DNA of 64,000 nt from an uncultured Thermomicrobiaceae bacterium. GTDB taxonomy: Bacteria > Chloroflexota > Chloroflexia > Thermomicrobiales > Thermomicrobiaceae. Where the stretch lies: positions 37,248 through 101,247 of the forward strand of contig CALKCJ010000010.1 in the NCBI GenBank assembly GCA_938082375.1. Reading direction: 5' to 3'. The notes below the pieces were generated by a model. It made no database searches, had not been told where the DNA came from, and worked only from the letters and a program-made list of their open reading frames with translations. Every line of letters begins with the position of its first letter. Within the stretch, counting starts at the first letter, position 1. Of the stretch, positions 9,365 through 19,294 are shown one piece after another. Made by a program: the position numbers and the translations under genes.

Positions 9365-9568
9365 TTACCGGAGAACGGCCGCCAGGGCCGCGATGCCTCC
9401 GACAAGCAGGATGATAACGCCAATCAGCAGCAGGAGCGCCAGCCACACCGCGCGGTCAAAGCTGTCTGCCGATACTCGTTGCCTCTCGATGGTCGCTCGC
9501 TTCGGAACCTTGCGCGCCGCGCTCGTGGCCATCAGTACGTCTTCGTCCATGCCCCGTCCATTCGACAC
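9365..9568 (-). CDS. Small single-pass membrane protein
   Basis: 67 residues. A charged N-terminal half with KVPKRATIERQRVSAD precedes one strong hydrophobic helix (about 41-65) at the very C-terminus, giving a tail-anchored topology. Starts at 9568, 9550 and 9532 are all possible, and none has a strong RBS. The coding status rests on the clear helix and absence of competing frames. Function unknown. Confidence 0.45.
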   Translation of the reverse strand: MSNGRGMDEDVLMATSAARKVPKRATIERQRVSADSFDRAVWLALLLLIGVIILLVGGIAALAAVLR

Positions 9569-9771
9569 TCAAGGCTAACCCTCGCCCTACCCTACCACCT
9601 TCTGGTCACCGAATGGTGAAGATGACGTGAAACTCTCGGCAAAGATCACCAGCGGACATCGCGCCCTAGGAGTCCCTACCGACAAGCGCGGCCTGCTGAC
9701 CGATGTTGTGGAGGCACGCTCCACGCTGTGGTTCGCTCGACGCCTGTGGCAAGCGTCTGCCAGCGGACGGG
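9569..9771. other. Intergenic region upstream of the iron block
   Basis: About 200 bases with no credible gene, the left part of a 379-base gap that ends with the promoter and operator of the FTR1 operon. Confidence 0.4.
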
Positions 9772-9800
9772 TTGACAGGCGCGAGACAAGTCGCTACTCT
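9772..9800 (+). promoter_or_regulatory. Promoter of the FTR1 iron operon
   Basis: TTGACA (9772-9777), 17-nt spacer, TACTCT (9795-9800), directly followed by the inverted-repeat operator. Same geometry as the promoter at 15005-15033. Confidence 0.7.
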
Positions 9801-9825
9801 AAACCCGACTAATATTGTCGGGATT
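9801..9825 (+). promoter_or_regulatory. Iron-operon operator, copy 1
   Basis: 25-bp inverted repeat AAACCCGAC-TAATATT-GTCGGGATT beginning right after the -10 box. It matches copy 2 (15034-15058) at 23 of 25 positions, and both precede iron-uptake operons. A bound repressor would cover the transcription start. The symmetry and the CCGAC-N7-GTCGG core resemble Rrf2/IscR type-1 sites; a DtxR- or Fur-family repressor is the alternative. Confidence 0.75.
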
Positions 9826-9947
9826 TGTGGCAGCTAACTGGGTTCGATTCTACGCCTCAATGCCTCAGGCGCGCCTGTCGAGGGCAATCATGTCGGTCTC
9901 CGGTCCGCACGCGGAGCGGGCCTGGCACTAAGGGAGGGAGTGATCGC

Positions 9948-11099
9948 GTGTCGCTGGCCGGGCAGTGTCTGCTCAGGCGAGTGCCCCATAGCATCGTTGC
10001 CGCCGCCGTCCTCTTGCTCAGCTCGTGCGGGGCTGAGTCGGCGCCATCCGGCTCACCGGCCGATACGCCGACATCCGCACCATCGATGTCGACGGCCTCT
10101 GCTCCTCCATCGTCGGCCGCCACTCCGGTAACCACCCTCGATGAGGAGACGCTCAAACTGGCCGGCGCGCTCGCGCAGATCTGGGGTCACCTGGAAGCGA
10201 GCGCGGCGAGCATCGAGGCTGGGAATTGGGACTTTGCCGCAGCCCATGCTGGTCATCCGATCGCGGAGTACTGGGAGCAGGTCGAAGGCCCGCTCAGCGA
10301 GCAGGGGCTCGCGCAGCCGCTGCACCTGGCGCTGGAGCGCTACCTGCACGCAGTCGAGCGCCAGGCGAGCGACTACCAGCAGCCTCATCAGGTCGCGGTC
10401 TCCCAGACTCGCCAGGCGCTGGAAGCCATCGCTGGCGAGAGCTGGAACGATCCCGCCTTCCGGGCAGAGCTCATCCGCCAGCTCCTCGAGTCCGTCGAGC
10501 ACGAGTACAGCGAGGCGGTTCAGGATGGGCAACTTGCCGAGCTCGTCGAGTACCAGGATGCTTGGGGATTCTTCACCGTGGCCCGGCAGCTCTACCCGGA
10601 CATCGCGCAGCAGGTGCAGTCCGGTTCGAGCGAGGCTGCCGAGGAGATCGAGCACGAGCTGGCCGAGCTCGATCGTATCTTTGGCTCCTTCATCGTCCAA
10701 CCCGGCCAGGCGCCGGCCTCACCCCAGCAGGTCAGCGATGCGCTCGGTGAGGTGCGGACCGAGCTAGCCAAGGCGCTCCAGCTCACCACCACCGAGCCGA
10801 AGGGCCCGGTCGAGACGATCGCCGAGATCAAGACAATGATGCAGCAGGCGCTCGATGCCTACGCCCTCGGCGAGCAGGATGGGGCCTACGACCTGGCAGC
10901 GGATGCCTATCTAGAAGGTTTCGAGAAGATCGAGGGTGATCTGATCCAACGAGGTGAGCGGGAGTTCGTCGAAGAGCTGGAGCTCCAGTTCAAGGAGCTC
11001 CGGGACGGCATGCGCCAGGGACGGCCACTGGAGGAGCTCCAGGCGCTCGCCGACGAGATCAGGGGTAACCTCGACCACGCACTGGAGGTTCTGCAATGA
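9948..11099 (+). CDS. Iron-uptake-associated helical lipoprotein
   Basis: 383 residues from a GTG preceded by GGGAGGGAG. Signal peptide with lipobox LLLSSCGAE (Cys near residue 27), then a Thr/Ser/Pro/Ala linker to about residue 65, then mostly amphipathic helix. The last 90 residues (YALGEQDGAYDLAADAYLEG, then ELQFKELRDGM, then LDHALEVL) closely resemble the N-terminal extracytoplasmic domain of the FTR1 protein encoded next (YRAGDSETALRLARQAYLDH, then EYRFAEWRNQI). A similar but more diverged unit seems present in the middle. It is probably an extracytoplasmic partner that delivers or gates iron for FTR1. Stop and next ATG overlap by 4 bp. No Cu-oxidase or EfeO imelysin motif is seen. Confidence 0.8.
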   Translation: MSLAGQCLLRRVPHSIVAAAVLLLSSCGAESAPSGSPADTPTSAPSMSTASAPPSSAATPVTTLDEETLKLAGALAQIWGHLEASAASIEAGNWDFAAAHAGHPIAEYWEQVEGPLSEQGLAQPLHLALERYLHAVERQASDYQQPHQVAVSQTRQALEAIAGESWNDPAFRAELIRQLLESVEHEYSEAVQDGQLAELVEYQDAWGFFTVARQLYPDIAQQVQSGSSEAAEEIEHELAELDRIFGSFIVQPGQAPASPQQVSDALGEVRTELAKALQLTTTEPKGPVETIAEIKTMMQQALDAYALGEQDGAYDLAADAYLEGFEKIEGDLIQRGEREFVEELELQFKELRDGMRQGRPLEELQALADEIRGNLDHALEVLQ

Positions 11100-12379
11100 C
11101 GATCGCTGACCTCCAACCCTGCACGCAGCGTGGTGCACCGCGGCGCCTGCTGGCCTTGCTCACGGTGGCGGCGCTCCTCGTGCTCCTCAGCGGGGTGACC
11201 TCGCCGGTCGCGCGGGCCGCAGAGCCGCAGGTGGACGTGCAGCGAGAGCTGGCCGTCATTCGGGAGCTCATGCGGCAGAGCCAGGAGGCTTACCGGGCCG
11301 GTGACTCCGAGACGGCCCTGCGGCTGGCTCGGCAAGCCTATCTCGACCACTTCGAGCTGGTCGAGATCCCGCTGCGCGTCATCGATCCGAACTTCACACT
11401 CGAGATGGAGTACCGCTTTGCCGAGTGGCGCAACCAGATCGAGGCCGGCGCACCCGCCGTCGAGGTCAACGCCACGGCCCAGGAGCTCGAACGGGGCCTC
11501 GACGAGGTGGAGGCGCTCTTCGAGGGGTCAGGGCTAGTCGCCCCGACGCTGGTGACGGTAGCCTCGTTCTCGATTCTCTTCCGCGAGGGTATCGAGGTCA
11601 TCCTGGTGCTGGCCGCGATCCTCGGGTACATCCAAACCCAGAACCCGCAGTTGCGACGCCCGCTGTGGTGGGGCGCCGGACTGGCGATTCCGGCCAGCGT
11701 CCTGACCTGGTTCGTCTTGAACTGGGTGCTGCGCGTGGCGCCGATCGGCCGCGAGGTGCTCGAAGCGCTGGTCTCGCTCCTCGCTGTCGCGCTGATGTTC
11801 TACATCAGCTTCTGGCTGCTGCGCCGCCTCGATGTCCGCCGGTGGATGGAGTTCCTGCGGGCGAAGGTCTGGGACGCGGTGGCCGTCGGCAACACCGGTG
11901 CGATAGCGGCTCTGGGCTTCGTCTCGGTCTACCGAGAGGGGGCAGAGACGGCGCTCTTCTACCAGGCGCTACTACTGATCGCCCAGCGGCTCGAGCTCTG
12001 GATCGTGCTGGGCATCGGTCTGGCAGCCGCGGTCCTGGGTGTCATTGGCTGGGCGATCATCGCCCTCGGGGCCCGGCTGCCACTGCGGGCCTTTCTCGGC
12101 ATCGCGCTTGCCGTTATCATGCTTCTTTCGGTCGGGCTCCTCGGCAACGCCGTTTGGGAGCTGCAACAGATCGGGTTCCTCCCAATGACGCTGCTAGGTG
12201 ACTCCTTCCCGCGCTTCAACCGGTTCCTGGCCGACTTGCTAGGGCTGCACGCGACCCTGGAGACGGTGGCGGCGCAGAGCCTGCTCCTCCTGGTCTACCT
12301 GGCCGCCTGGCTCTACGCCTTCTGGCGGCAGCCGCGCGGGGCCGGAACCTGGCGACGCCAGGGGACGGGAGCCGGATAG
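11096..12379 (+). CDS. FTR1-family high-affinity iron permease
   Basis: 427 residues: signal peptide (about 17-41, ending ARAAEP), a helical extracytoplasmic domain (about 45-140), then about seven TM helices. Both iron-binding REGxE motifs are present: FREGIEVILV in the first half and YREGAETALF in the second. FTR1/EfeU proteins move Fe(III) across the membrane, usually after oxidation or with an extracytoplasmic partner. The ATG overlaps the lipoprotein stop (ATGA), so the pair is coupled. Regulation by the operator at 9801-9825 is likely. Confidence 0.93.
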   Translation: MTIADLQPCTQRGAPRRLLALLTVAALLVLLSGVTSPVARAAEPQVDVQRELAVIRELMRQSQEAYRAGDSETALRLARQAYLDHFELVEIPLRVIDPNFTLEMEYRFAEWRNQIEAGAPAVEVNATAQELERGLDEVEALFEGSGLVAPTLVTVASFSILFREGIEVILVLAAILGYIQTQNPQLRRPLWWGAGLAIPASVLTWFVLNWVLRVAPIGREVLEALVSLLAVALMFYISFWLLRRLDVRRWMEFLRAKVWDAVAVGNTGAIAALGFVSVYREGAETALFYQALLLIAQRLELWIVLGIGLAAAVLGVIGWAIIALGARLPLRAFLGIALAVIMLLSVGLLGNAVWELQQIGFLPMTLLGDSFPRFNRFLADLLGLHATLETVAAQSLLLLVYLAAWLYAFWRQPRGAGTWRRQGTGAG

Positions 12380-12408
12380 ACGAGGCCACCGTGCGAGGGA
12401 GGCGGGCC

Positions 12409-14523
12409 GTGGGTATCAGGGTCGGTATCGACGTCGGTGGCACATTCACCAAGGCCGTCGCCATCGAGAGCGCCTCTGGAGCGCTCGTCGGCAAGGTAAC
12501 CGTTCCAACCACGCATCACGCGGCTGAGGGTGTAGCGCGCGGGCTGGTCGAGGCGTTCAGGTCTCTCGTGCAGCGGACCGGGATCGATGTCGAAAGCATC
12601 GAGCTCGTTGTGCTCAGCACGACCCAGGCGGTCAACGCCCTACTCGAGGGCGATGTCGCCCCGGTCGGTGTCGTCGGCATCGGCCCGCAGGCGAACCGCA
12701 AAGAGGCGTTTCGGCGAACCAGGATCGACGCGGTCCAGTTGACGCCCGAGCGCCGCCTGCCTGTGTTCCACACCTTTCTGGATGCCGAGGAGCTGAGCGA
12801 GGAGCGGATCGTTGATACCCTGAGAACGCTCATGGCCCGGGGGGCGCGGGCCATCGCGGTGAGCGCGGCATATGGCGTAGAAGACCCCGCACCGGAGCGA
12901 GCGGTCCTGGACGTGGCGACCGCCCTTGGCCTCCCGGCGACTGCCGGCCATGAGATGAGCGGGCTTTACGGCCTGGAGGTACGTACGCTCACCGCTGCCG
13001 TCAACGCCAGCATCCTGCCGCGCATGGCCGAGACGACCCGGTGGGTCGAGCAGAGCCTGGCGACCAATGGTCTCGAAGTGCCCCTGATGATCCTACACGG
13101 TGACCTGGCTGTCAGCCCGCTGGAAGAGGCGCGCCGGCTAGCCGCCTCGACGATCCTGTCCGGCCCGGCAGCCAGCGTCGCCGGAGCTTTGCTCTACCAC
13201 AAGCTGCTCGACGGGCTCTTCATGGAGGTCGGCGGCACCAGCACGAACGTCGGTGTCATCCGTCACGGCCGCCCGGTGATGAAGTACGTCCGCATCATGG
13301 ACCACCCCACCTCCCTGCGCTCGGTCGACGTCCGCGTTGCCGGGGTGGCGGGCGGCAGCCTGGTACGTCTGAGAGGCCGCAAGATAGCCGGCGTCGGGCC
13401 TCGCAGTGCCCATATCGCCAGCCTGCCCTATCCCTGCTTCACTCCGCCCGAGATGCCCTCGCACCTCCGGCTGGTGACGCTGGCCCCGCGCCCTGGCGAT
13501 CCAGAGGACTACGCGGCCCTCGAGGACGACGAGGGGCGGCGCTATGCCATCACGCTGACCGACGCTGCGAATGCCCTTGGGCTCGTGCCTGAAGGCGATT
13601 ACGCGCGTGGCTATCGGGAATCAGCCCTACGAGCCCTAGCGCCGCTCGCCGAGCGACTCGGTATGCCCGTCGAGCGGGCCGCGCGGCTCATCCTCGACCA
13701 GGCTGCGAAGGAGGTCGAGCCACTCCTGCGCGATCTGGTGCGGGAGTACCGCCTGCGCTGCCCCGTCCTGCTGGGACTCGGCGGCGGTGCGGCCGTGCTG
13801 GTGCCGGTGCTGGCCGATCGTCTCGGGGTCGACTACCAAATCGTCCCGCACGCGGAGGTGATCTCCTCGATCGGCGTCGCGCTCGCGCCGATCAGCGTCG
13901 AGGTGGAGCGTAGCTTCAGTCCGGGTCAGCCTGTGAGGCTCCTGGAATGGGTGCGCGAGCTGGAGCAGGCGGCTGTCCGCTACGGGGCCGACCCCCAGAC
14001 CGTGCAGGTCACGGTCGAACCGATCCCCGAGCGCGCGGCCGTCCGCCTGCGGGCTGCCGGCACCTGCCGGGGTACGGCCGGCAGCCGCCTCGGTGAGGTC
14101 GATATCGCAACCGCGCGGTCGCTGGCTGCCCAGGCCCTGCGGGTGCGTCCGGAGACCCTGACGCTGGTCTTCGACAACGGCTTCTACCGGGTCTTCCAGG
14201 CCGAGACTGGAAGAACCTTCGGGCCCTTCCGTCGCCGACGCCAGCTCGCGGTGATCGACCGCGAGGGCGCGGTACGCTTCGTCGCCGACGATGGCACCTA
14301 TGTGAGTGGTGAGCCGCAGGAACTCGAGCAGAAGCTCCGCGAACTCGGTGACTTCCAAGCACGCTGGTATGCCGTACGCCCGAACGTCTTGATCGTCCAG
14401 GGCCCACACTGCCTCAATTTGCCTGACTGGGGGCCGCTCCCGCTCGACCTGAGCGCGCTCGGTTTGGATGGAGCAGCTCGCGAGCCCTTTGCCGTCCTAG
14501 CCGGTATGAGCCCCGTTCGGTAG
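12409..14523 (+). CDS. Hydantoinase/oxoprolinase A-family (ASKHA) protein in iron operon
   Basis: About 704 residues. N-terminal MGIRVGIDVGGTFTKAVAIE is the phosphate-1 motif of the HyuA/5-oxoprolinase/acetone carboxylase family; further family features are LSTTQAVNALLEGD, RGARAIAVSAAYGVEDPAPE, LSGPAASVAGALLYH, and MEVGGTSTNVGVI (where the usual motif is DxGGTSxD, here E and N). A late LGLGGGAAVLVPVLADRLG matches the C-terminal end of the ATPase fold. Such proteins hydrolyse ATP to open or activate a cyclic amide or ketone. No HyuB partner is encoded. It sits 29 nt after FTR1, behind AGGGAGG, inside the iron operon. GTG at 12391 is an alternative start. True substrate unknown. Confidence 0.75.
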   Translation: MGIRVGIDVGGTFTKAVAIESASGALVGKVTVPTTHHAAEGVARGLVEAFRSLVQRTGIDVESIELVVLSTTQAVNALLEGDVAPVGVVGIGPQANRKEAFRRTRIDAVQLTPERRLPVFHTFLDAEELSEERIVDTLRTLMARGARAIAVSAAYGVEDPAPERAVLDVATALGLPATAGHEMSGLYGLEVRTLTAAVNASILPRMAETTRWVEQSLATNGLEVPLMILHGDLAVSPLEEARRLAASTILSGPAASVAGALLYHKLLDGLFMEVGGTSTNVGVIRHGRPVMKYVRIMDHPTSLRSVDVRVAGVAGGSLVRLRGRKIAGVGPRSAHIASLPYPCFTPPEMPSHLRLVTLAPRPGDPEDYAALEDDEGRRYAITLTDAANALGLVPEGDYARGYRESALRALAPLAERLGMPVERAARLILDQAAKEVEPLLRDLVREYRLRCPVLLGLGGGAAVLVPVLADRLGVDYQIVPHAEVISSIGVALAPISVEVERSFSPGQPVRLLEWVRELEQAAVRYGADPQTVQVTVEPIPERAAVRLRAAGTCRGTAGSRLGEVDIATARSLAAQALRVRPETLTLVFDNGFYRVFQAETGRTFGPFRRRRQLAVIDREGAVRFVADDGTYVSGEPQELEQKLRELGDFQARWYAVRPNVLIVQGPHCLNLPDWGPLPLDLSALGLDGAAREPFAVLAGMSPVR

Positions 14524-14536
14524 TGAGCGGCTGACG

Positions 14537-14980
14537 ATGGTCGTCTACCGCCCGAAGCGCCGCTTCCCTCTCTGGGCTAAGGCAGCGATCGCGCTGGCCG
14601 CGCTTCTCCTGTTGGCCGGCGCCGGACTGTGGGCCAGGTCTGCAACCAGACCTTCGGCCGAAGAGCGACTCGCACAGGCGATCGCGTCGATGACGGCCCA
14701 GCTCGACGTCCTGCGGATCTCGCACTACACGCCCGACGTCGTGCGCGATGGCCAGGTGGTGATGCAGGGCGAATACCAGGCCGCACTGGCAGACATCGAA
14801 CGCGTGCGCAGCGAGTGGCAGTCCGTGCGAACCGAGGTACCGGAGCCGGAGCGCACGCAGATCGATGGCGCGATCAAGGAGCTCCACGCCCTCGTTCAGG
14901 CGCGGCGCCCAGCTCCTGACGTCGATACGCGTGTGTCCAAGCTGATCGAGCTGCTGCGTGCCATCGGAGCGAACCGGTGA
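14537..14980 (+). CDS. Membrane-anchored helical protein, last gene of FTR1 operon
   Basis: 147 residues. Basic N-terminus VYRPKRRF, one TM helix (about 13-33), then an extracytoplasmic helical domain (AALADIERVRSEWQSVRTEV, then IDGAIKELHALV). The helical part has the same character as the extracytoplasmic domains of the lipoprotein and FTR1, with which it is co-transcribed (13 nt after the HyuA-like stop). It may belong to the same iron complex; no known family recognised. Confidence 0.65.
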   Translation: MVVYRPKRRFPLWAKAAIALAALLLLAGAGLWARSATRPSAEERLAQAIASMTAQLDVLRISHYTPDVVRDGQVVMQGEYQAALADIERVRSEWQSVRTEVPEPERTQIDGAIKELHALVQARRPAPDVDTRVSKLIELLRAIGANR

Positions 14981-15004
14981 CGTCGCGCACTGCCACTGCC
15001 GACC

Positions 15005-15033
15005 TTGACAGCCGGCTTTTGGCCCCTTAAGAT
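15005..15033 (+). promoter_or_regulatory. Promoter of the Fe(III) ABC transporter operon
   Basis: TTGACA (15005-15010), 17-nt spacer, TAAGAT (15028-15033), abutting the operator. It starts only 24 nt after the preceding operon's last stop. Confidence 0.75.
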
Positions 15034-15058
15034 AATCCCGACTAACATTGTCGGGATT
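15034..15058 (+). promoter_or_regulatory. Iron-operon operator, copy 2
   Basis: Perfect 9-bp inverted repeat AATCCCGAC-TAACATT-GTCGGGATT directly after the -10 box. Copy 1 is at 9801-9825. See that entry for the likely regulator class. Confidence 0.78.
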
Positions 15059-15158
15059 CGGCGAGCGCCGGTGCCTGCCGACCACAGGTCGAACGTTGGC
15101 GTCACCAGCCCGGGTGGTGGTGCCAACGCGCACAATGCCAGGGAGGAAGGGTAGCTTC

Positions 15159-16334
15159 GTGCAGTTCCAGGTAAACCGAAGGGTCTTCCTACGTGCGGTC
15201 ACTGCCGCGCTGGTGGCCGGCACTACCTTCCCGCTGCTGCAGGCGTGCGGTGGTCGGGCAGAGAGCCCGACGCCGACAGCCGCTAGCGGCACAGAGGCAT
15301 CGCCTGAGCCGACTGCGACGGCCGTGACGACACCGATGACACACGCGCCCCCGTCGCCAACAGGGGCCGCGACGGTCACCCCGGTGGCCAGGGGGACGGT
15401 CGGCGGCTCGCTCACCGTGTACTCGGGGCGGAGCGAAAGCCTGATCGGGCCACTCATGGATCAGGCTCGGAGCGCGCTGGGGATCGACGTCCGCGTCCGT
15501 TACGGTGACACCGCCGAGCTTGCCGCCGCGATCCTCGAAGAGGGTGGACGCAGCCCGGCAGACCTCTTCTTTGCGCAGGACGCTGGAGCGCTCGGCGCGC
15601 TGGCGCGCGAGGGACGCTTCATTGAGCTCGACACCGAGATCTTGGAGCGGGTCGAGCCGCGCTTTCGCTCCCCACAGGGGCTCTGGGTCGGTATCAGCGG
15701 CCGCGCTCGGACAGTCGTCTACAATACCGACCAGCTCACCGAGTCCGATATCCCTGCATCCATCCTCGACTTCCCCGGCGACGAGCGGTGGCGTGCCAAG
15801 CTGGGTTGGGCGCCGACAAACGGATCGTTCCAAGCCTTCGTCACCGCGCTGCGCGTGCTGCGCGGTGGCGATGCGGCCCGCTCCTGGCTCATCGGGTTGA
15901 AGGAACTTGGAACCCGCGCCTACGAGAATAACACCGCGATCGTGCGCGCCACGATCGCCGGTGAAATTCTGGCAGGGTTCGTCAACCATTACTATCTGGT
16001 TCGGGAGGAGTCGCAGGCGGGGCGAGATCTCCCGGCGGCAAACTACTTCTATCGCAACGGTGACCCTGGGGCGCTGATCAATGTTGCGGGCGTCGGTATT
16101 CTCGCCTCTGGACGCAATCAGGAGCCGGCGAAGGCACTGGTGGACTACTTGCTGGCGCCAGAGGCCCAACAGTTCTTCGCGGAACGGACGTTCGAGTACC
16201 CCTTGATCGATGGCGTGCCGGCAAGCCCGAAGCTGCTCCCGCTCGAGGAGATTCAGACGCCGAACATCGACCTCTCGGATCTGGACGATCTTCAGGGCAC
16301 ATTGGCGCTCCTACAGGAGGTGGGACTCCTCTAG
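15159..16334 (+). CDS. Fe(III) ABC transporter substrate-binding lipoprotein
   Basis: 391 residues from a GTG preceded by GGGAGGAAGGG. The N-terminus NRRVFLRAVTAALVAG is twin-arginine-like and runs into a lipobox LLQACGG, so a Tat-exported lipoprotein is likely; a Pro/Thr-rich linker follows to about residue 80. The mature part fits FbpA/FutA-type class F proteins: LTVYSGRSESLIGPL, DLFFAQDAGALGAL, VYNTDQL, and NHYYLVRE, the tandem-Tyr motif that coordinates Fe(III) in this family. It captures ferric iron outside the membrane for the permease and ATPase encoded next. Confidence 0.92.
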   Translation: MQFQVNRRVFLRAVTAALVAGTTFPLLQACGGRAESPTPTAASGTEASPEPTATAVTTPMTHAPPSPTGAATVTPVARGTVGGSLTVYSGRSESLIGPLMDQARSALGIDVRVRYGDTAELAAAILEEGGRSPADLFFAQDAGALGALAREGRFIELDTEILERVEPRFRSPQGLWVGISGRARTVVYNTDQLTESDIPASILDFPGDERWRAKLGWAPTNGSFQAFVTALRVLRGGDAARSWLIGLKELGTRAYENNTAIVRATIAGEILAGFVNHYYLVREESQAGRDLPAANYFYRNGDPGALINVAGVGILASGRNQEPAKALVDYLLAPEAQQFFAERTFEYPLIDGVPASPKLLPLEEIQTPNIDLSDLDDLQGTLALLQEVGLL

Positions 16335-16352: not shown

Positions 16353-18053
16353 GTGACGATCGGGATCGGCAAGGCGCAGACTCAGACGACGCAAGCCAGA
16401 AGCAGGCGGCTTTGGTATGGTCGCCTCGGCGCTCCGACGCTCATTGTGGCGCCGGCTGGTAGTCTGGCAGCGCTCTCGCTGATCCCATTGGTCTACCTCT
16501 TGGTACGCGCGCTGGAGGGTGGCGAGCAGACACTCGCCACTCTCTGGCGTGGTCGCACCCTCGACCTGATCCAGAACACGCTTGTCCTGACTGCCGCGGT
16601 CACCGGGTGCAGTGCCGTTCTCTCGCTTCCCCTCGCCTGGCTGACCACACGAACCGACTTGCCAGCGCGACGGCTCTGGTCGGTCGTCGCCGCTCTGCCG
16701 CTCGCTGTACCGAGCTACGTTGCGGCATTCACCGCCGTAGCCGCATTCGGGCCCCGCGGCGCCCTCCAACAGCTGCTCCAGCCGCTCTTCGGGCTCGAGC
16801 GGCTCCCCGAGATCTACGGGTTTACCGGCGCCTGGCTCGTACTCACGCTCTATACCTACCCGTACTTGTACCTTTCACTCCGCGGCGTCATGGGCTCGCT
16901 CGACCCTGCACTCGAGGAAGCAGCTCGCTCCCTCGGTCACGGCCCGTGGAGCACCTTCCTGCGGATCACGCTGCCCCAGCTTCGCCCCGCGATGGCGTCG
17001 GGCGCGCTCCTTACCGCACTCTATGTCGTTAGCGACTTCGGGGCTGTCTCGCTGCTCAACTACGACGCCTTTACTCGCGTGATCTATAACCAGTATCGTC
17101 TGGCCTTCGACCGTAGCGGCGCGGCCGGGTTAGCGCTCGTCTTGGCAACCCTGACGCTCGTCATCGTCGGCGCCGATCGTGCCTGGCGTGGCCCTCACCG
17201 CTACCATCGCAGCAGCTCTGGAGCCTCACGGCCGCCGCAGCGGGTTCGACTGGGCCGTTGGACGCCGGTCGGCTTGGCCTACTGTGGCGGACTGGCCCTG
17301 CTGACATTGGGCACGCCACTCGCGGTCATTGGGTACTGGGTCGTACAGGGGCTGCGGAGCGGCAACCCGTTCGTCCTGACCTGGCGCGCAGCCTGGCACT
17401 CGACCTCCGTCTCGTTGCTCGCTGCAGCGCTCTCGGTCGCCGCAGCCTTCCCGATCGCCGTACTCCTGGTTCGCTACTCCGGCTGGATCAGCCGCCTGGT
17501 CGAATTCCCGCTCTGGGTAAGCTACGCGTTGCCAGGGATCGTCACCGCGTTGGCGCTGGTCTCCTTCGGCGCCCGCTATCTCTCTCCGCTGTACCAGACG
17601 CTCGCCATGCTCCTACTGGCCTATCTGATCCGGTTCCTGCCCGAAGCGGTCGGCAGCCTGCGTGCCTCGCTACTCCAAGTCAGCCCGCACGTGGAAGAGG
17701 CTGCCCGGAGCCTGGGGCACTCGCCACTGAGGGTCTGGTTGCGCGTCACTGCGCCGCTGCTCTGGCCTGGCATCACCAGCGGCGGCACGCTCGTCTTCCT
17801 GACGACGATGAAGGAGCTGCCTGCCACCCTGCTCCTAAGCCCGATCGGCTACGAGACGCTGGCCACCAAGGTCTGGAACGCTACTCGCGAGCTCTTCTGG
17901 TCAGACGCTGCTCTGCCGGCATTCCTCCTCTTCTTGGTCGCAGCGCTCCCGATGGCCATCCTCTTGTGGCGACAGCAACCGACTGAGTGGGCCGGTACGC
18001 CGGTGTCTGGTGATCGAGAAAGGCAGGCGAGAGCGACCGGCTCCAACTGGTAG
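16353..18053 (+). CDS. Fe(III) ABC transporter permease, fused two-domain (FbpB/ThiP type)
   Basis: 566 residues with about twelve TM helices in two homologous halves. Each half ends with an EAA loop: EEAARSLGHGPWSTFLRITL near residue 190 and EEAARSLGHSPLRVWLRVTA near 450. Such fusions form the whole translocation pore of ferric-iron, thiamine or similar importers. The gene starts with GTG 18 nt after the binding protein, and the ATPase follows. Substrate is assigned from the adjacent NHYY-containing binding protein. Confidence 0.92.
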   Translation: MTIGIGKAQTQTTQARSRRLWYGRLGAPTLIVAPAGSLAALSLIPLVYLLVRALEGGEQTLATLWRGRTLDLIQNTLVLTAAVTGCSAVLSLPLAWLTTRTDLPARRLWSVVAALPLAVPSYVAAFTAVAAFGPRGALQQLLQPLFGLERLPEIYGFTGAWLVLTLYTYPYLYLSLRGVMGSLDPALEEAARSLGHGPWSTFLRITLPQLRPAMASGALLTALYVVSDFGAVSLLNYDAFTRVIYNQYRLAFDRSGAAGLALVLATLTLVIVGADRAWRGPHRYHRSSSGASRPPQRVRLGRWTPVGLAYCGGLALLTLGTPLAVIGYWVVQGLRSGNPFVLTWRAAWHSTSVSLLAAALSVAAAFPIAVLLVRYSGWISRLVEFPLWVSYALPGIVTALALVSFGARYLSPLYQTLAMLLLAYLIRFLPEAVGSLRASLLQVSPHVEEAARSLGHSPLRVWLRVTAPLLWPGITSGGTLVFLTTMKELPATLLLSPIGYETLATKVWNATRELFWSDAALPAFLLFLVAALPMAILLWRQQPTEWAGTPVSGDRERQARATGSNW

Positions 18054-18091
18054 ACTTGGAGGGCTGCCGCGGGCATCCAGGCGGGAGGGTT

Positions 18092-19294
18092 ATGCAGAGC
18101 ATCGAGCCAGCGATCGAGCTGTCCGGGGTCTGGAAGCGCTATCCGGGTATCGAGCGACCGGCCGTACGCGACCTCGATCTCACCGTCTACCGCGGTGAGA
18201 TCCTGGCACTGCTCGGCCCCAGCGGCTGTGGCAAAACCACGACGCTGCGGCTCATCGCCGGCTTCGAGCGGCCGGATGCCGGTACGGTGACCTTGCACGG
18301 GCACATCGTCGCGGACGAGCGCCGTTTCGTGCCTCCAGAGCGGCGCGGGGTCGGTATGGTCTTCCAGGACTACGCGCTCTTCCCACACCTCACGGTGGCG
18401 GAGAACATCGCCTTTGGCCTCAGTTCCCTCGCGCGGGCGGCACGCCGCCAGCGGGTCGAGGAACTCCTCCGGCTCACCGATTTGCAGGACGTACGTGATC
18501 GCTACCCGCACCAGCTCTCCGGTGGTCAGCAGCAGCGAGTCGCGATCGCCCGCGCGCTCGGGCCCAGCCCTCAGGTGCTCCTACTCGACGAGCCGTTCTC
18601 TCACCTCGACACCGAACTGCGCCTGCAGATGCGCACTGAACTGCGCCGCTTGCTAGACCGCCTCCAGATCACCGCTGTCCTGGTCACCCACGACCAGCAG
18701 GAGGCGATGGCAATTGCTGACCGCGTAGCGGTCATGCTGTCCGGCCACATCGAGCAGGTCGACACACCTGACAAGGTCTACCATTACCCAGTGAACCGCG
18801 CGGTAGCACAGTTTGTCGGCCAGGCCACCTTTGTCCCGGCCCGCCTGAACGGCGTCGTAGCCGAGTCCGACCTCGGGCGGTTTGCGTTCGAAGCGAGGGC
18901 GCGCACGCCCGAACTCGTCGAGCTCCTTGTCCGCCCCCGCGATGTGTCATTGGAGGCCGACCCTGAGGGGATTGCCGTCGTCCTTGCACGTCAGTTCCAG
19001 GGGCCAGAAACGGTCTACCTGGTGCAACTGCCATGCGGCGTGCAGCTTCAGACCAGCCAACCCTCATATGTCGACCTCTCTCCGGGTACGCGGGTGCGTG
19101 TCCGCTGTAACCGCGCGCGGCTGGCCGCCTTCGACCGCCATGCGCAAGTCGGCCTCACCGTCGCGCCGAATGCAGCGATCGGTTCGTACCGTGGAGCGAT
19201 AGCGAGCGACGACTGCCTCGGTACGGTGGGTTCAGGGGACGCCGTGGCCGAAAGCCGCAACAGGCTGGAGCCAGCGGAGCCTCAGCTTCCCTAA
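18092..19294 (+). CDS. Fe(III) ABC transporter ATP-binding protein (FbpC type)
   Basis: 400 residues from the ATG at 18092, behind GGGAGGG; an in-frame ATG 36 nt earlier is less likely. Walker A GPSGCGKTT, Q-loop VFQDYALFPH, signature LSGGQQQRVAIARAL, Walker B LLLDEPFSHLD and H-loop VTHDQQEA are all present. The C-terminal part (from about 250) is a TOBE-type regulatory domain. It energises the permease encoded just upstream. Last gene of the operator-2 iron operon. Confidence 0.93.
   Translation: MQSIEPAIELSGVWKRYPGIERPAVRDLDLTVYRGEILALLGPSGCGKTTTLRLIAGFERPDAGTVTLHGHIVADERRFVPPERRGVGMVFQDYALFPHLTVAENIAFGLSSLARAARRQRVEELLRLTDLQDVRDRYPHQLSGGQQQRVAIARALGPSPQVLLLDEPFSHLDTELRLQMRTELRRLLDRLQITAVLVTHDQQEAMAIADRVAVMLSGHIEQVDTPDKVYHYPVNRAVAQFVGQATFVPARLNGVVAESDLGRFAFEARARTPELVELLVRPRDVSLEADPEGIAVVLARQFQGPETVYLVQLPCGVQLQTSQPSYVDLSPGTRVRVRCNRARLAAFDRHAQVGLTVAPNAAIGSYRGAIASDDCLGTVGSGDAVAESRNRLEPAEPQLP

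Follow-up and report, generated by a model that had tools for sequence, protein, structure and literature searches.

The 64,000-nucleotide stretch of an uncultured Thermomicrobiaceae bacterium analysed here (the window) carries two iron-uptake operons on its forward strand, each preceded by a 25-bp inverted repeat that is read here as a probable operator of one Rrf2-family repressor. In front of operon 1, a TTGACA-N17-TACTCT promoter (9772..9800; -35 at 9772-9777, -10 at 9795-9800) is followed directly after the -10 by the dyad AAACCCGACTAATATTGTCGGGATT (9801..9825), which consists of the arms AAACCCGAC-N7-GTCGGGATT. The TTGACA-N17-TAAGAT promoter of operon 2 (15005..15033; -35 at 15005-15010, -10 at 15028-15033) runs in the same way into the dyad AATCCCGACTAACATTGTCGGGATT (15034..15058), with the arms AATCCCGAC-N7-GTCGGGATT. 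The two operators are identical at 23/25 bases, and the sequence-only reading of this stretch, which had described two near-identical operators in the same geometry behind TTGACA-N17-(-10), is thereby confirmed to the base.

Operon 1 opens with a protein that by eye is a predicted lipoprotein (9825..11099, no Pfam or NCBIfam match), whose open reading frame starts at 9825 with the true start probably near 9949. Its second gene encodes an FTR1-family iron permease (11096..12379; PF03239, 4.8e-25), which the NCBIfam EfeU/Ftr1 models also match, but under their cut-offs. Operon 2 begins with an FbpA-type ferric-iron binding protein (15048..16334; reading frame open from 15048, true start probably about 15159) that matched PDB 7w3w at E 7.4e-78 and 28 distinct solved chains in all, most of them named iron-binding and the closest being ferric-binding proteins. 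An FbpB-type ABC (ATP-binding cassette) permease (16353..18053; PF00528 in two stretches) and an FbpC-type ABC ATPase (18056..19294; PF00005 plus TOBE_2) follow on the same strand, and their assignment to iron rests on their place behind FbpA. The earlier assignment of FTR1 and an Fe(III) ABC transporter to the two operons thus stands.

Within the window, 37 inverted repeats of operator shape (9-bp arms, N7, at most one arm mismatch) were counted, among which the second most alike pair is identical at 18/25 bases. The full 25-mer, searched for with up to three mismatches across the genome (3.36 Mb, 61 contigs), was found at two places, both of them the window operators, and the reversed-pattern control gave none. 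When the search was extended to 158 genomes of the class, 21 of which form the same family (f1), matches occurred in 14 genomes, 12 of them in the family, again with no match for the control.

Orthologous promoters of relatives, which the sequence-only reading had named as a check, keep both the operator and its geometry. FbpA orthologs with at least 50% identity are present in 18/21 family genomes, and the operator lies upstream of all 16 that have upstream DNA; this count leaves out the orthologs of G108 and G110, which are cut by contig ends, a 33%-identical protein of G106 with no good site in front, and the distant matches of G121, G125 and others. The operator is likewise found upstream of FTR1 in 13/13 genes from 12 family genomes, the operon of G116 being split across two contigs. 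In all 29 FbpA and FTR1 promoters the -35 is exactly TTGACA, the spacer is 17 (22 promoters) or 18 bp (7 promoters), with TTGACA-N17 seen throughout the 13 FTR1 promoters, and the operator begins 0 or 1 bp past the called -10, with weaker -10s such as GAGAAT less sure because the -10 was called as the best match among spacers of 16-18. Among the FTR1 operators of genus g5 and G112, six of seven have a mirror-image base change in both arms (CCGAG...CTCGG), the remaining one being that of G122 (CCGAT...CTCGG). Such mirrored changes would be expected of a dyad that is read by a symmetric dimer.

A looser form of the dyad (at most one mismatch) was found at 73 places in 43/158 class genomes, with one place for the reversed control. 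These genomes include 20/21 of the family itself, 4/5 of f3, 12/32 of f5, 4/5 of f10, 1/7 of f14 and one genome each of f6 and f9; the looser dyad was not found in f2 and f4, and it hardly occurred across f6-f9 as a whole. Flanks were fetched for 40 of the 73 places, most of the others already having loci, and sites were assigned via gene calls, Pfam and NCBIfam models and tblastn, in some cases on single weak matches (FecB in L226, BFN in L229). On this basis 44/73 sites were assigned to iron uptake, namely FbpA (16), FTR1/EfeO (14), Fec-type siderophore transport (13) and an enterochelin esterase (1). Seven sites lie at genes for iron-sulphur (Fe-S) cluster assembly, three of which are rrf2-suf. 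Further sites precede nitroreductase or DUF3386 genes (7), operons with a BFN-domain gene first (3), a ZIP-like gene under the Pfam cut-off (1) and a P-type ATPase gene (1), and one site near FbpB is ambiguous. The remaining nine are without assignment: five are cut by contig ends, one is undetermined, and the others are those of G021, G081 and G154.

The three rrf2-suf sites point towards the regulator, as the dyad here precedes a gene for a potential binder. An rrf2-sufC pair stands behind the dyad in G084 and G087 (both f10) and in G097 (f14), and in G097 the geometry is that of the window (TTAGCA-N18-TATACT-operator). In these two families, rrf2 occupies the place in front of suf that is held by fur in the genome of the window. 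The Rrf2 proteins of the three genomes are 45-49% identical to the Rrf2 encoded beside iscS in the genome studied here (L003) and 30-31% identical to its second Rrf2. Orthologs of the iscS-linked Rrf2 (at least 71% identity) were found in 14/21 family genomes; of the other seven, six are 54-87% complete and one, G113, 91%. In G120, which is 99% complete and has operators at FbpA and FTR1, the iscS-linked Rrf2 is the sole Rrf2 match. A further protein with a weak Rrf2 match (L005) was dropped as it looks MarR-like by eye.

L003, a protein of 146 aa encoded on G000:C42, belongs to the Rrf2 family (PF02082, 133.4 bits vs a curated cut-off of 30) and fits none of the named subfamilies above their thresholds. 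It scores 97 bits with the NCBIfam IscR model TIGR02010 (cut-off 207.55), 57.2 with RirA (193) and 47 with NsrR (182), and stays under the CymR cut-off (NF047409, 136.3 vs 195) though this is its best NCBIfam match; the CymR chains compared have gaps or other residues at the columns of the three cysteines. The residues of interest in L003 are Cys92, Cys102 and Cys108, Glu8, the series Ala40, Tyr41, Glu43 and Gln44, and Arg59. The closest solved chain is the BadM/Rrf2-family regulator of PDB 4cic (E 1.4e-38), presumably the Thermincola potens IscR with Cys-to-Ser changes, in which three Ser align with the Cys columns of L003 and His8 stands in place of Glu8. This glutamate recurs in the operator-linked Rrf2 proteins of f10 and f14. 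In NsrR, Asp8 of the other subunit is reported as a cluster ligand (PMC5411485), and by analogy Glu8 might be guessed to serve as the fourth cluster ligand.

Both 25-bp dyads contain the YYGAC-N7-GTCRR core of the IscR type-1 site of E. coli, and they match 21/25 and 19/25 positions of its consensus, 21 being the best value in the window. Tyr41, Glu43, Gln44 and Arg59 are kept between this IscR and L003, going by the published residue list (PMC11475020), and the regulons differ. A closer counterpart is RisR of Myxococcus xanthus, an Rrf2 protein described as regulating isc and suf and as repressing in its holo-form (PMC9973013). Compared by published residues and core rather than by sequence alignment, RisR and L003 share Cys92, Cys102 and Cys108, and the footprinted core palindrome of RisR, GAC-N7-GTC, is the core of the dyads here, for which binding is predicted. 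The risR gene lies in front of suf genes, as does rrf2 in G084, G087 and G097 (PMC9973013). By contrast, the targets reported for RisR are isc and suf, whereas most assigned sites here are iron-uptake operons; in addition, rrf2 adjoins iscS in the family studied here, and the conserved outer arms AATCC/GGATT form part of the site. The phylum list published for the RisR subgroup, IS6, is without Chloroflexi (PMC9973013). In Rhodobacter sphaeroides, IscR acts at a palindrome (the Iron-Rhodo-box) that overlaps or lies near the -35 and -10 of iron-uptake genes, and it is the cluster-bound form that represses; this IscR has a single Cys and a 19-bp box, as opposed to three Cys and 25 bp in another lineage here (PMC4618611). 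The operator is therefore less novel than the sequence-only reading had supposed, since its core is the published RisR core and Rhodobacter already provides a known case of iron uptake controlled by an Fe-S-sensing Rrf2; what is new is the lineage, the form of the operator, its geometry and the regulon.

The genome scan for sites at Fe-S, Rrf2 and Fur genes that had been suggested as a check led to an asymmetric copy of the operator, TTGACG-AATCCCGAT-N7-GTAAGGTA, inside the promoters of rrf2-iscS and fur-sufCBDSU. The pattern TTGACN-AATYCCGA-N8-GTAAGGTA, with up to three mismatches, occurs in this genome at these two promoters only, both with 0 mismatches, and the control is found nowhere. The desulfurase beside rrf2 passes NifS and an IscS-subfamily model, and the suf operon passes the SufC, SufB, SufD, SufS and SufU models. 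Across the family, the element is present in 9/14 rrf2-iscS promoters and before fur in 15 genomes, where it is slightly altered (in genus g3 the right arm reads GTAGAGTAT), the position of fur at the head of suf being confirmed by family models in the genome of the window (G000) only. The Fur/PerR-family gene that heads sufCBDSU there (G000:C38, L102 5985-6428) carries a Fur-type box of its own and is accompanied by a SufU-like gene in divergent orientation; PerR models score best on its product, under their cut-off.

This Fur-type box lies immediately downstream of the asymmetric element. As the 15-mer TGAGAATNATTCTCA with at most one mismatch, it occurs in 16/21 family genomes with no match for the control, and in the genome studied here once, at fur-suf. 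Its core is found in 10/14 rrf2 promoters, with three one base off; the 15-mer of the rrf2 promoter in the genome of the window has two mismatches. Of the 15 fur promoters with the asymmetric element, 13 contain a box with only 0-2 mismatches, and those of G112 and G114 have four mismatches at best. A Fur-box match in G117 (L060) with pilus-like genes alongside by eye looks like chance. The idea of a pure swap, with Fur for Fe-S assembly and Rrf2 for iron, had to be softened, as the asymmetric Rrf2-type element is present in the same Fe-S promoters.

Taken together, we put at roughly 80% the probability that both dyads are operators of one Fe-S-bearing Rrf2 repressor, predicted from sequence to be the iscS-linked one, which would occupy the start sites of the iron-uptake operons as long as Fe-S clusters are in good supply and come off once these run short. 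That an Rrf2-like repressor may control iron uptake, as the sequence-only reading had proposed, is well supported at the level of sequence by the genome scan, by the orthologous promoters and by the three genomes from two other families in which the dyad precedes rrf2-suf. The iscS-linked Rrf2 is the likely binder because of Cys92, Cys102 and Cys108, the operator-linked rrf2 genes and the precedent of RisR and IscR, and by analogy with these we infer that it carries an Fe-S cluster and represses in the cluster-loaded form. With its cluster in place, the protein would cover the start site, beginning where the -10 ends, and keep RNA polymerase off the promoter; if iron or redox stress removed or damaged the cluster, Rrf2 would be released and iron could enter by the ferric, siderophore and FTR1 routes. 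At fur-suf and rrf2-iscS, where the asymmetric copy overlaps the -10, binding may be weaker and may adjust the level of Fe-S assembly and of the repressor, with the Fur-type box behind it as a possible second input at the Fe-S assembly genes.

Several observations weigh against this reading. The bare core CCCGAC-N7-GTCGGG occurs in the window at chance level (11 matches vs 10.9 expected, at most two mismatches) and CCGAC-N7-GTCGG is not enriched genome-wide (7 places vs 20 for the control), so that the signal comes from the geometry, the outer arms and the similarity between the two copies. The dyads of G084 and G087 are found upstream of the likely -35 of a TTGAC promoter and not behind the -10, and in G113, 91% complete, two dyads are present and a full Rrf2 was not found. 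L003 has an incomplete (Cys)3(His)1 ligand set, with the three Cys kept and Arg111 in the column of the IscR His, and it has Ala40 where IscR has Ser40. Autoregulation is not general, as the asymmetric element is lacking in 5/14 rrf2-iscS promoters and, among the 29 best-scoring order-wide Rrf2 loci listed, none has the symmetric dyad (at most four mismatches, 350 bp upstream) and six have the asymmetric element. Moreover, the genomes are kin to each other and many are fragmented, so that the counts do not represent independent events.

The three FUR-family genes of the genome count on the same side and are the starting point for the strongest alternative, in which another metalloregulator of the Fur family or of the DtxR/MntR type owns the operator and the link to Rrf2 is incidental. 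Fur is the usual repressor of iron uptake (PMC11475020), and two of the three paralogs score best with a Bacillus-type Fur model, under its cut-off. The dyad, however, is GC-armed with N7, unlike a Fur box, and a separate Fur-type box exists at fur-suf; this particular form of the box, TGAGAATNATTCTCA, has at best 4-7 mismatches in the 29 FbpA and FTR1 promoters, with six in each window promoter. The dyad before rrf2-suf in three genomes also disfavours it, and with searches that covered Fur-family genes and this Fur-type box, we regard this alternative as improbable.

Considerably less probable still as the binder is the genome's second Rrf2 (C34, 171 aa). It is of the same family and also has three Cys, yet it is patchy, with a low-identity match in 10/21 family genomes and none found in G120 and G114, which carry operators, and the operator-linked Rrf2 proteins of other families are closer to the iscS-linked Rrf2. 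As for a role of the dyads as RNA elements (terminator, attenuator or riboswitch stem) or as chance repeats, the chance-level core would suit it, as would the 11 loci (L090-L100, nine in Bacteroidota) at which the exact 21-bp core pattern was found in a species collection whose locus list may omit very near relatives: L090 and L091 have a terminator-like T-run, and none of the 11 matches the window iron proteins or the Rrf2s in tblastn (E 0.01). This role is nevertheless hardly credible, as the start site would lie inside the dyad and the transcript would therefore carry only about one arm, no T-run follows the window dyads, the sole Rfam match in 9500-15300 (E 0.8, below gathering) lies elsewhere, the dyad is placed behind a TTGACA promoter in 29/29 cases and the full-pattern controls gave 0-1 places. 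The lack of iron-protein matches at the 11 loci means that, beyond this lineage, the exact core cannot serve as a marker; by eye, those in other phyla lie at terminator or mobile-element-tail positions.

Iron regulation seems little studied in this lineage, and no paper on Rrf2 in Thermomicrobia or Chloroflexota was found in the open-licence literature. If operator control by the iscS-linked Rrf2 is correct, it joins Rhodobacter IscR as a further example in which iron uptake is governed by an Rrf2 protein that senses Fe-S clusters, and it suggests that the genes for BFN-domain proteins, DUF3386 proteins and nitroreductases respond to iron stress. The outcome is a testable operator, a promoter geometry, a candidate regulator and a gene list. 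More tentatively, and with the odds somewhat against it, a whole order outside the Proteobacteria might place ferric, siderophore and FTR1 uptake under an Rrf2 [Fe-S] repressor as master switch and keep a Fur-type box mainly at suf and rrf2-iscS, which would turn the textbook roles of Fur and IscR around; the BFN-domain, DUF3386 and nitroreductase genes would then be iron-stress genes that have so far gone unrecognised.

The BFN-domain (PF02577) protein, for which we know of no iron role, recurs in operator-led operons (L015/L108, L014, L016, L018, L229, L240), either alone or with EfeO, DUF3386 or nitroreductase, as checked with Pfam in L108 and L018 and by tblastn elsewhere. DUF3386, which is named in no paper found in the open-licence literature, stands behind the operator in L241, L243, L251 and L014, twice after a nitroreductase. 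In G115:C23 (L058 1501-1586), a 172-aa protein without Pfam match is preceded both by a CCGAC-N7-GTCGG dyad and by a Fur-type box that has no mismatch. P-type ATPases were met in two settings: behind a Fur-type box with one mismatch in genus g3 (L054-L057; Pfam check in L057) and downstream of an Rrf2-type dyad in G129 (L242).

The two iron operons of the window are separated by genes on the forward strand for a hydantoinase/oxoprolinase A-like protein (12391..14523; PF01968, 9.5e-47) and a small protein with no family assigned (14537..14980), a pair for which no iron link is known to us. The small protein is conserved next to the hydantoinase A-like gene in G116 and G117, and in both genomes the pair (12391-14980 in the window) also adjoins FbpA.

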